64,000 nt of DNA, taken from contig NZ_CP141821.1 of NCBI RefSeq assembly GCF_035621495.1, positions 1,702,760-1,766,759 on the forward strand. Reading direction: 5' to 3'. Below are positions 49,063-55,324 of the stretch, piece after piece. This DNA comes from Thermococcus sp. SY098 (GTDB taxonomy: Archaea > Methanobacteriota_B > Thermococci > Thermococcales > Thermococcaceae). How positions within the stretch are numbered: the stretch's first letter is position 1; each line of letters starts with the position of its first letter. Made by a program: the position numbers and the translations under genes. The notes under the pieces were generated by a model. That model searched no databases, was not told where the DNA came from, and saw nothing but the letters and a program-made list of their open reading frames with translations.

Positions 49063-49162
49063 TTCAAAATTACATTTTCGTAGTTTACAATTGCTTCATT
49101 CGCTATTGTCCACGCCATTAATGGTTCTTTGTAAGGACTTATTTTCACTCCATCAACTCTGC
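49063..49162 (-). pseudogene. Leftover 3' fragment of nep1
   Basis: Reading the minus strand gives [31 protein letters not shown], nearly the same as the last 32 residues of the intact Nep1 at 54665 ([31 protein letters not shown]). The DNA stretch 49115-49158 is identical to 54718-54761 except for one base. Before this, the sequence bears no nep1 similarity, so only the 3' end remains. It has lost the stop that follows VIL in the intact copy. It marks one border of the GC-rich island. Confidence 0.85.
49115..49158 (-). repeat. Direct repeat, left copy, in nep1 3' end
   Basis: 44 bp, with one mismatch to 54718-54761, in the same orientation, on either side of the GC-rich island. It would be the left attachment-like site if the island came in by site-specific recombination. 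Confidence 0.75.
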
Positions 49163-49219
49163 AGGAAAGCAACACTTTTTTAAAGAAGGATTATCAAAAA
49201 GCAAAAAATAAAAGAAAAA

Positions 49220-49600
49220 TCACTTCTTCACAAGCTTGTATATCTCAACTTTGACGGTGTACTGTCCGCTTGTGGTTGCTTTGTAGTCAATCCTGACCTG
49301 AAACGGATTGGAAGAGGAGTAGAGTAAATTGTTTGTATCTGATTCTGTGATGACATTTCCATTCTCATCGAGTATTGTTATCTTATCAACTATGCCCTCA
49401 CCGCCTGCCTTTATCATATATTTGCCGGGATCAAGGACATGTGAGAGGTAGAAGACATCACCTGTAACACTTTCGCTTTTGACTTCTACAGGAACTTGGG
49501 TGTAAGCGTGGGTGTAGTAGTAGTTCATCCCGAAGACGCTCACTATCCCAAGGACTATGAGTATCAGGAAACCCGTAATGAATTTTTTGATAAGTCCCAT
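49220..49600 (-). CDS. Small membrane-anchored protein of unknown function
   Basis: A 126-residue protein with one N-terminal membrane helix (FITGFLILIVLGIVSVFGM) and an exterior beta-rich domain with VSHVLDPGKYMIKAGGEGIVDKI-like strands, resembling a single beta-sandwich. ATG 49600 follows GAGGAGGTGAAA. It is the last gene of the island's minus-strand operon. No family recognised. Its base composition is close to the host, unlike the next genes. Confidence 0.6.
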   Translation of the reverse strand: MGLIKKFITGFLILIVLGIVSVFGMNYYYTHAYTQVPVEVKSESVTGDVFYLSHVLDPGKYMIKAGGEGIVDKITILDENGNVITESDTNNLLYSSSNPFQVRIDYKATTSGQYTVKVEIYKLVKK

Positions 49601-49613
49601 TTTTTCACCTCCT

Positions 49614-50357
49614 CTACTTCTTTTCAAGTTCGACTATCTTCACAGCATCTGCAAACTCCTTGGGGGTGATGTTTCCAGAGAGAGCCTTCAGCAGATCTTT
49701 ACTTGACACTGAAATGCTAACGTTTCTCTCGCCGAGATAGATAATCTCAACCCTCTCCACCCAGGGAGCGTCCTCCAGTACAGCAAGGCTCATCCTGGCG
49801 TAGTCCCTCCAGAAGGAGTCCTCCCCAGCCAGGTACTCAAGGGAAACACTCGCGGTATCGTTCGTGACAGTTACGTTGTGCACGAGGACATCGAAGAGGC
49901 CCAAGTCGGTCTCTATCCTGAACTCCGGTCTCCTTATGTCTTCAAAGAGCGGGTTGTCAAAGTCGCCGTTTTCTATTGAGATGGCCAGAATAGGCTCGTC
50001 CCCGAAGTATGCCTCCACCCTGATGTTCTCGGAGCCGTTTTCGCGGGCCTTCTCCGCGAGGGTGTAGAGGGCACCAGGAAGGCTCCCGTCGATGACGCTC
50101 GTCTCGAATTGTATAACCGTCCAGTTGCCGGAGCTAACCACGCTGACGTTCCCGGCCAAATCCTCGCCCGAGGTTTCCGTTCCACTGGAGGACGGGGTTT
50201 CGATGGTGCTGGAAGTCTCTCCGGGGTTGTTCGTCACGTTCTTGGCGGTGTCTATGAGTTGTTCAGGGCTTAGGTTGTCGGGAATCTGGAAGTCCCAGTT
50301 GAGGTACAGGTAGGCACCCGCGATTAGGAGGAGTACCAGGAGAAGCTTTCCCTTCAT
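49614..50357 (-). CDS. Secreted or membrane-anchored protein, island gene
   Basis: A 247-residue protein with an N-terminal hydrophobic segment (LLLVLLLIAGAYLYL), a Thr/Ser/Glu-rich linker (about residues 38-65) and a C-terminal domain of alternating strands and helices (residues about 70-245). There are no Cys residues. High GC and GC-rich codons set it apart from genes outside 49.6-53.5 kb. ATG 50357 overlaps the next gene's stop by four bases. The function is unknown. Confidence 0.6.
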   Translation of the reverse strand: MKGKLLLVLLLIAGAYLYLNWDFQIPDNLSPEQLIDTAKNVTNNPGETSSTIETPSSSGTETSGEDLAGNVSVVSSGNWTVIQFETSVIDGSLPGALYTLAEKARENGSENIRVEAYFGDEPILAISIENGDFDNPLFEDIRRPEFRIETDLGLFDVLVHNVTVTNDTASVSLEYLAGEDSFWRDYARMSLAVLEDAPWVERVEIIYLGERNVSISVSSKDLLKALSGNITPKEFADAVKIVELEKK

Positions 50358-53642: not shown

Positions 53643-53653
53643 CTTTTTATACT
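53643..53653 (-). promoter_or_regulatory. TATA box for the small gene / propeller operon
   Basis: GTATAAAAAGG read on the minus strand. Start of transcription would be near 53620, 20 bases before the 34-residue gene. It may also serve the operon from 53463 downwards. Confidence 0.5.
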
Positions 53654-53708
53654 GCTCCTTCATGGGTTTTACTTCCTATGAAATTCTTCCCTGAAAGTCC
53701 TGTCCTTC

Positions 53709-54119
53709 TTAGAACTCTTCATCCTCCTCTCCCCAGTCGTCGTTAAAGAAGCTGTCCTCGTGCTCCGATGAAGTTTTGACCACAGCTATTTTTCCTCCTT
53801 GCGCTCTTAGCAGCTTGAGAGAAAGCCACAGACCGAGAATAAAGAATGCACCTCCAATGTATATAGCGAGGTTTGGGAGGAACATCGTGCCTATGAGGTA
53901 GCCAACACCGCCAAAGGTCAGGCTCGTTATCCCCACGACTATGAGTTTGAGCATGAGCTTTAGAATAAGCCAGAGCAGTAGTATCAAGCCGAGGATTATT
54001 GCAACGCCGATGAGAGGTCCACTCACGTGAAACCCCGTTAGATATCTATCATCCTCCTGACAAAGTGCGCTCGGCAGAGAGCTCATAAAAAGCCCTGCTA
54101 CCATCAGATATTTATTCAT
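53709..54119 (-). CDS. Small membrane protein of unknown function, island gene
   Basis: A 136-residue protein with an N-terminal hydrophobic segment (YLMVAGLFMSSLPSALC, possibly a signal), then LTGFHVSGPLIGVAIILGLILLLWLIL and two further helices (VVGITSLTFGGVGYLIGTMF; IYIGGAFFILGLWLSLKLL), ending in an acidic tail (EDSFFNDDWGEEDEEF). ATG 54119 follows GGTGGTGAAG. It is closely related at one motif to the 34-residue gene next to it. Function unknown. Confidence 0.6.
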   Translation of the reverse strand: MNKYLMVAGLFMSSLPSALCQEDDRYLTGFHVSGPLIGVAIILGLILLLWLILKLMLKLIVVGITSLTFGGVGYLIGTMFLPNLAIYIGGAFFILGLWLSLKLLRAQGGKIAVVKTSSEHEDSFFNDDWGEEDEEF

Positions 54120-54664
54120 ACCTTCACCACCTTTCAAAACCATCCCGCAGAAAAGAAAAGCGAGACAGGTTTTGCTTTTTATCCATTTTATTTTTTACAT
54201 GTTACATGTTTGGGTTAATATACTTTTCTGTCTTTGATAAGATACTGTTAGGATTAGGCAGTTTGAGTTATATGTAAGTTTTTGTTAACACTTCAGAAAA
54301 GGGGAGATGAGAGCTGAAATCATCCTATACTGCTGATTTTCAGTCTTAAAATCTTTTCACTGGAATAAAATTCGAGCAGAAAAGAGGATAACCACACTGG
54401 TGCAAAAAACCAGCGGGAGCTGTAAAAACTCCTCGCAGTCAAAAAACGGAGGAATTTCATCACAGTTGATGAAGCTGTAATAAAAAATTAATGGTGAGAA
54501 TGTTGAGAGCAAGGAAGTGTGTTGAACACTGATTTGGGACTGTTAAGGAGCGGGTAAGCGCTTTTGAAATAATTTCAGGAGTAATGACTGCAGGGAGAGT
54601 TCACTGGTTTGTTTTCTTGTTTCCTTTTTGTCAGAATTCTTTTTAATATGGTCATTAGTTCATA
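54120..54664. other. Gene-poor region at the right end of the island
   Basis: 545 bp with no intact gene. It holds a transposase remnant (54440-54520). The rest is AT-rich with no clear promoter for the island genes, except possible AT boxes near 54205-54240. It seems to be decayed DNA at the island edge. Confidence 0.5.
54440..54520 (+). pseudogene. Remnant of an insertion-sequence transposase
   Basis: One plus-strand frame reads RRNFITVDEAVIKN (54447-54488) and then, after a short gap and frame change, NVESKEVC (54499-54519). This order, with FxxVDExxIK first and VESKE next, resembles the first catalytic Asp region of DDE transposases of the IS6-like type that is common in Thermococcales. 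Stops and frame breaks surround it, so it is dead. No terminal repeats were found. Confidence 0.4.
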
Positions 54665-55324
54665 TTAGAGGATTACATGCTCATAACTTATCACGACTTC
54701 GTTTACTATAGTCCAGGCCATTAATGGTTCTTTGTAAAGACTTATTTTCACTCCATCAACTTTACTCTTGAAGTCTCCATGAGGAAATCCTCCTACAATA
54801 ACCGCAGGATCTTTAAACTGTTTCAAAAGCTGTCCGAAGTCTTTTGGCTTCATAAATTCTCCCTCTTCATGCATTATAAAAACAGCATCTGGTTTGATTT
54901 CTTCTAAAAGCTGGTTCAGAGTTTTTTCCTCAAGCTTCAGAAGTCCAAGGTCTGGGGGAACAACTTTATTTTTAAAGAGGCTTTCCATAAGCCCAACAAA
55001 TCTATTGTAGTTTCTTGGTATCCTCGTTTCCGGTTTTATATATATGACTTTATCGTTTCTCGTATGTACATAAACTCTAAGCATACCCTCTTTATTGAGT
55101 ATGCTCTCCAGGGCATTTATCAAACAAAAGTGAACTATATCTGGCCTTCCCCTTCGATTCCCATCTTCAAGCTTTCTCAATGCCGAGTGATGATATGTTG
55201 AATCCAAAATAATTTCCTCCGGTTTTTTCCCTCGTCTTTTGGCATAGTTCACAACAGCTGGATGATCTAATATGTTCTTTGGCACAAGTTCAAGCTCCGA
55301 GTCTGCTATTATTAGATGCAACAT
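54665..55324 (-). CDS. nep1: Nep1/EMG1-type 16S rRNA pseudouridine N1-methyltransferase
   Basis: A 219-residue SPOUT-fold methyltransferase that modifies a pseudouridine in small-subunit rRNA. It begins [15 protein letters not shown]; the middle has [14 protein letters not shown] and [19 protein letters not shown], and near the end [11 protein letters not shown] is the SAM-binding knot. ATG 55324 follows GGTGGTGAAG. It ends VIL-stop; the same end is repeated at 49063-49162. It follows the dehydrogenase gene with a two-base gap, an operon. Confidence 0.88.
54718..54761 (-). repeat. Direct repeat, right copy, inside intact nep1
   Basis: 44 bp, one mismatch to 49115-49158, same orientation. It lies within the coding end of nep1 and would be the right attachment-like site of the island. 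Confidence 0.75.

Follow-up and report, generated by a model that had tools for sequence, protein, structure and literature searches.

A foreign operon for predicted secreted proteins behind a hybrid nep1 gene in Thermococcus sp. SY098

Incoming DNA can be joined to a chromosome by homology at one end and without it at the other. Such homology-facilitated illegitimate recombination is known from competent bacteria and from conjugation in E. coli, and it needs no recombinase gene in the insert (PMC3240628). In the Thermococcales, the integrase of the pTN3-family elements, IntpTN3, gives products resembling those of homologous recombination on segments of about 100 bp, the shortest reported being 104 bp, and pTN3 DNA travels between cells in vesicles, whereas for cellular homologous recombination in T. 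kodakarensis the reports go no lower than 500 bp of identity (PMC5495485). Archaeal attB sites within protein-coding genes are also known (PMC8371274), and mobile units of the IS6 family (IS240/ISPfu-type) are bounded by IS6 copies.

We analysed a 5.5-kb, partly GC-rich insert at the 3' end of nep1 in Thermococcus sp. SY098. The window, by which we mean the whole stretch of 64,000 nucleotides that was analysed, is G000:C1:1702760-1766759 of a 2.03-Mb genome assembled as a single contig (Table 1). Like the cases of homology-facilitated illegitimate recombination, the insert seems to have one end made by homology and one without; unlike them, it lies in an archaeon, its history is read from sequence and its two host breakpoints nearly coincide. 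It differs from pTN3 in carrying neither an integrase nor pTN3 genes, in the shorter and imperfect homology at its ends, and in its site, as pTN3 uses the 5' half of tRNA genes as attB. It resembles IS6 mobile units in that an IS6 remnant directly abuts an operon promoter region, but this is one truncated copy, there is no flanking direct IS pair and the insert ends are not IS ends. The payload is foreign and agrees in its genes, its leader hairpin and its promoter region with the operon that is flanked by btpA and a phosphomannomutase gene in other Thermococcus, which is taken as its source; compared with that operon, o571 precedes o468, two genes are deleted relative to the best match (G053, the MAG Thermococcus sp. 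S144_40), and the whole sits behind nep1.

Table 1 Features of the insert and its flanks (positions in the window).
Feature	Position	Strand	Basis or remark
Sodium-dependent transporter gene	47684..49000	-	Follows nep1 directly in G001 and further relatives; flank of the empty site
Stranded native nep1 3' end, decaying	49063..49160	-	G001-like at diagnostic sites; collinear with G001 into transporter gene
25-bp scrap identical to promoter region upstream of IS605-family tnpB	49161..49185	+	Exact multi-genome matches
o135, predicted secreted protein, last operon gene	49220..49627	-	95% identical amino acids in G053
o247, predicted secreted or membrane-anchored protein	49614..50357	-	Shares an operon with o468 in GC-rich Thermococcus
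o468, predicted secreted protein	50354..51760	-	Relatives in 33/94 genomes
o571, putative secreted protein, beta-propeller-like, ending in a CGP-CTERM sorting signal	51757..53472	-	TIGR04288 match
Scar of ~3.2-kb internal deletion relative to G053 operon, with 34-codon remnant ORF	53496..53618	-	Junction of two G053 blocks at 53617/53618
o144, small membrane protein opening the foreign operon; likely start codon ATG 54119	53709..54143	-	90% identical amino acids in G053
Conserved promoter-proximal leader hairpin of operon	54136..54181	-	45 related sequences, compensatory changes
Degenerate insertion sequence of the IS6 family, with an internal deletion and no right end	54241..54638	+	Dispersed copies in other Thermococcaceae; TIR position
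nep1 3' flank joined to right-truncated IS6 element; same junction in G002	54639..54664	.	Alignment
Intact nep1 (16S rRNA pseudouridine N1-methyltransferase), two-species hybrid	54665..55333	-	Pfam EMG1 and NCBIfam match; diagnostic sites

Duplicated nep1 end and empty site

The last 90 bp of nep1 are present on both sides of the insert (49069-49158 and 54672-54761), with 74 of 90 positions identical (82%) and a BLASTN E-value of 3e-22, against values of at least 0.1, or no match, for 20 shuffled queries. Both the duplication and a 44-bp core differing at one base had been described in a sequence-only reading of the window, and both stand (core at 49115-49158 and 54718-54761, 43/44 identical). 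That reading saw in the pattern an element integrated in the 3' end of a gene. Because the core is near-identical across all g1 relatives, its identity reflects conservation of the gene rather than a recent event; within the genus the core is just the best-conserved part of the nep1 end.

The alignment with the closest relative (G001, about 95% DNA identity) consists of two collinear blocks, 40000-49158 and 54672-62829, which overlap in G001 by exactly the 90-bp nep1 end. The empty site in G001 is clean, and the genes there run in the order saccharopine-dehydrogenase-like gene, nep1, sodium-dependent transporter, eIF5A and agmatinase. The empty site that was proposed as a check beside nep1 in other genomes was thus found in G001, and also in three others (G003, G004 and G005) with the same gene order, nep1 adjoining the transporter. 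A second nep1 end occurred in none of the 93 other Thermococcaceae genomes, which argues against nep1 as a recurrent attachment site.

Several of these features are those of a site-specific integrative element with the nep1 3' end as attB, its integrase having since been lost: the insert is bounded, where a gene ends, by direct repeats with a near-identical core, the gene is restored by the incoming copy as an intact hybrid, and the empty site is clean. The idea is reasonable, since attB sites in archaeal protein genes are known. Neither an integrase nor a tRNA or Rfam feature was found in or at the insert, however, and its ORFs gave no recombinase match with Pfam, NCBIfam or PHROG, in agreement with the earlier remark that no integrase gene is seen inside. 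The insert likewise lacks replication and other mobility genes, and no plasmid, phage or IMG/VR relatives of the island, of o468, of o571 or of nep1 were found. No other element occupies nep1 in the 93 other genomes, the core owes its identity to gene conservation, and the payload is elsewhere a chromosomal operon with fixed neighbours, found neither as a plasmid or virus nor at att sites. Of the two edges, one is an IS6 remnant whose junction seems to pre-date the transfer, and the other is an apparently illegitimate join at IS605 debris. Against this evidence the proposal of an integrating element does not hold up well, and we consider it improbable. More generally, a duplicated gene end with an island between its copies can arise without an integrase, so that this signature is by itself insufficient to call an integrative element in archaea.

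An integrase elsewhere in the genome, another suggested check, does exist: there are two archaeal integrase genes. One (PF16795, G000:C1:1639663-1640145) lies about 63 kb left of the window with a PHROG virus-type head protein about 5 kb away (about 1645 kb, L186), the pair being a probable provirus, and the second lies at 1254770.

A nep1 gene from two species

The origin of each nep1 end was assessed at diagnostic sites, that is, positions of the gene where G001 and the sister species G002 differ. Over nucleotides 1-548 of the intact gene these sites favour G001 by 67:13, whereas over nucleotides 613-666 they favour G002 by 12:0 (Fisher p = 1.4e-8 against nucleotides 1-548). The intact nep1 is a hybrid, in which the body is native and the last ~60-110 nt appear to derive from a G002-like donor, the switch falling between about 54704 and 54791. 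Third positions agree, as 3 of 34 differ from G002 in the foreign end and 65 of 188 in the gene body. The switch is seamless and lies inside a conserved stretch of nep1, like the homologous junction of homology-facilitated illegitimate recombination. The copy on the far side of the insert is G001-like at eight of its nine scorable diagnostic sites and is the native end, left behind and now decaying. The earlier proposal that the gene had been rebuilt with a foreign copy, one end coming from another species, is therefore borne out, and it is the stranded end that fits the host clade.

The same proposal held that the two copies differ mostly at codon wobble. This is true in part, but the stranded copy also carries four nonsynonymous changes in 29 codons and has lost its stop through a 2-bp deletion. 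Set against nine nonsynonymous codons of 182 between the nep1 body and G001, this decay suggests that the insertion postdates the split from G001, yet is not brand new.

The presence of the IS6 remnant in G002, which is without the transporter gene, might also suggest that the genus has long carried the island and that it was lost from G001 by recombination between the nep1 ends and from G002 by deletion. However, the nep1 end of G001 is intact and of native type, as in G003-G005, the foreign end in the window is far closer to G002 than the gene body is, and the GC content of the island is unameliorated; we regard an old island as very improbable.

The two edges of the insert and its route of entry

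Beyond nep1, a non-coding stretch of about 160 bp is 77% identical between the window and G002, and both genomes share the junction between the nep1 flank and the truncated IS6 element. Since it is common to both, this junction would already have been present on a G002-group chromosome when the transfer to the ancestor of the window took place. The left terminal repeat of the remnant, GATACTGTTAGGATTA, is intact at 54241 and adjoins the operon promoter region. In other genomes, intact copies of the element code for a 233-aa DDE_Tnp_IS240 transposase and have the terminal repeat GATACTGTYAGGATAA; no further IS6 copy was found in the window's own genome. G002 has no transporter gene downstream of nep1 (L036 / G002:C1 around 149.6 kb) and has since lost the whole stretch between a point within the IS and one shortly upstream of eIF5A, as though the deletion had been promoted or bounded by the IS.

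At the other edge the similarity to G053 stops at 49187, and the order is operon flank, 25-bp IS605 scrap, native nep1 end. The join is abrupt and appears non-homologous, like the junction without extended homology in homology-facilitated illegitimate recombination; microhomology amounts to at most about 5 bp, which is not significant and too short to weigh. The 25-bp block lies ~25-50 bp upstream of tnpB (OrfB_IS605) in many Thermococcaceae genomes and occurs once in the window's genome. In the Thermococcaceae many IS605-family tnpB genes are preceded by this promoter-region block, GCAGGAAAGCAACACTTTTTTAAAG, in strongly conserved form (L156-L175).

On balance we lean towards the insert being chromosomal DNA from a G002-like donor that entered by homologous recombination in nep1, its other end having been sealed illegitimately. 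In a relative of G002 at the species level, a GC-rich Thermococcus operon resembling that of G053 would have settled behind nep1 and beside an IS6-family element. Donor DNA, probably taken up in linear form, would then have entered the ancestor of the window and recombined with the host nep1 over long homology on the nep1 side, so that the recipient gene gained the donor 3' end, the IS6 remnant and the operon, while the other end would have been closed without homology, the IS605 scrap linking it to the nep1 end that the host already had. Transfer is supported by the lack of other host copies of the IS6 element and of the 25-mer, by the lack of any mobile carrier in the plasmid, phage and IMG/VR searches and by the fixed locus of the payload elsewhere. 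The donor arrangement of nep1, IS6 and operon was found in no genome; G002, which would be a candidate for a donor homologous over a long stretch on the nep1 side, shares the nep1 end and the IS6 junction but has the truncated IS6 only, with neither operon nor transporter, and the donor step is read from ~116 bp of nep1 end and ~160 bp of IS remnant.

What speaks against this history is that the two host breakpoints lie within about 50 bp of each other in nep1. Unlinked homologous and illegitimate events do not require such near-coincidence, which is predicted both by the repair of one double-strand break and by a single crossover with a circle. A single break repaired by copying donor DNA also fits a seamless nep1 edge together with an edge made of debris. 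A circle, either an excised chromosomal segment or a plasmid, would carry ~100 bp of the donor nep1 end, the IS6 remnant and the operon, and would have entered by a single crossover in nep1 through RadA or a low-specificity integrase of pTN3 type acting in trans; it would explain why duplicated ends flank the whole insert and why both breakpoints fall in the same short stretch. Vesicle transfer and the short segments used by the pTN3 integrase (PMC5495485) make such a route conceivable, and the genome has two integrase genes, one of them beside a virus-type head protein, but that these are of pTN3 type is an assumption. The available homology is an imperfect ~102 bp whose longest identical run is a few tens of bp; the reported requirements are 104 bp (pTN3 integrase) and 500 bp (RadA), and the 500-bp need in T. 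kodakarensis favours long upstream nep1 homology over the 100-bp end of a circle. The nep1/IS6 junction shared with G002 points to a chromosomal history, and no relative of such a circle or plasmid was found. We therefore view entry as a circle as possible but rather unlikely, and it is improbable in its stricter form, in which the short nep1 end on circular DNA served as a docking site for a pTN3-type integrase supplied in trans. If true, that form would mean that chromosomal circles without an integrase can be moved between Thermococcales species via any short shared gene end.

With transfer of donor chromosomal DNA as the favoured reading, the locus offers a well-resolved example of genes passing from one Thermococcales species to another, comprising an empty site, a two-species hybrid of a conserved and essential ribosome-biogenesis gene, an IS-marked donor junction and a decaying pseudogene scar.

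The payload operon and its leader

Over 49.5-53.5 kb the GC content is 0.53-0.58, against 0.38-0.43 in the flanks, and GC3 is 0.69-0.72 in the three large genes (o247, o468 and o571), against 0.35-0.44 in their neighbours; the genes at 49.6-53.5 kb are thus GC-rich relative to the host, as first noticed. In GC-rich Thermococcus (genus g4) o468, o247, o571 and o135 form one operon, which several species keep between btpA on one side and the phosphomannomutase gene on the other. The best overall match, G053, has 90% DNA identity at 53617-54248 and 49187-50039 and about 79-81% between. It has two extra genes between o144 and o571, which the window lacks through a clean deletion joining positions 1537 and 4745 of L139. 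The gene order of the window (571-468-247-135, against 468-247-571-135 elsewhere) had raised the possibility of a circular permutation, which we rejected, as the G053 array with one internal deletion gives the same order if the two contigs of G053 are assumed to adjoin.

The operon probably encodes proteins that are secreted or sit at the cell surface. Searches of the insert with Pfam, NCBIfam and PHROG returned the CGP-CTERM signal at the end of o571, a weak beta-propeller match, nep1 and nothing else. o571 is 70-82% identical in amino acids to proteins of GC-rich Thermococcus. Full-length relatives of o468 are confined to genus g4, and dN/dS of about 0.17-0.20 against its nearest homologues shows purifying selection. 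AlphaFold models of o468 (pLDDT 48) and o247 (pLDDT 60) were too poor for a fold search.

The operon leader contains a hairpin of the form AAAACCTGTCYCGC-TTTTCTTTTC-YGCGRGATGGTTTT, found shortly before the start codons of secreted-protein operons across the Thermococcaceae (L002, L065-L075, L106-L125, L139-L149 and L176-L181). Among about 45 relatives, seven of the 12 pairs show compensatory changes, and 89.5% of the cells of the alignment pair, against 37-57% in slid controls; the fold has a minimum free energy of -17.9 kcal/mol (z = -3.3). The hairpin had no Rfam match and is a candidate for an uncharacterised structured 5' leader or regulatory element.

The btpA-phosphomannomutase locus itself (L140, L181, L106-L125) holds variable arrays of paralogous secreted proteins of the o468, o247, o571 and o135 types, some with swapped N-terminal parts, which suggests rapid shuffling.
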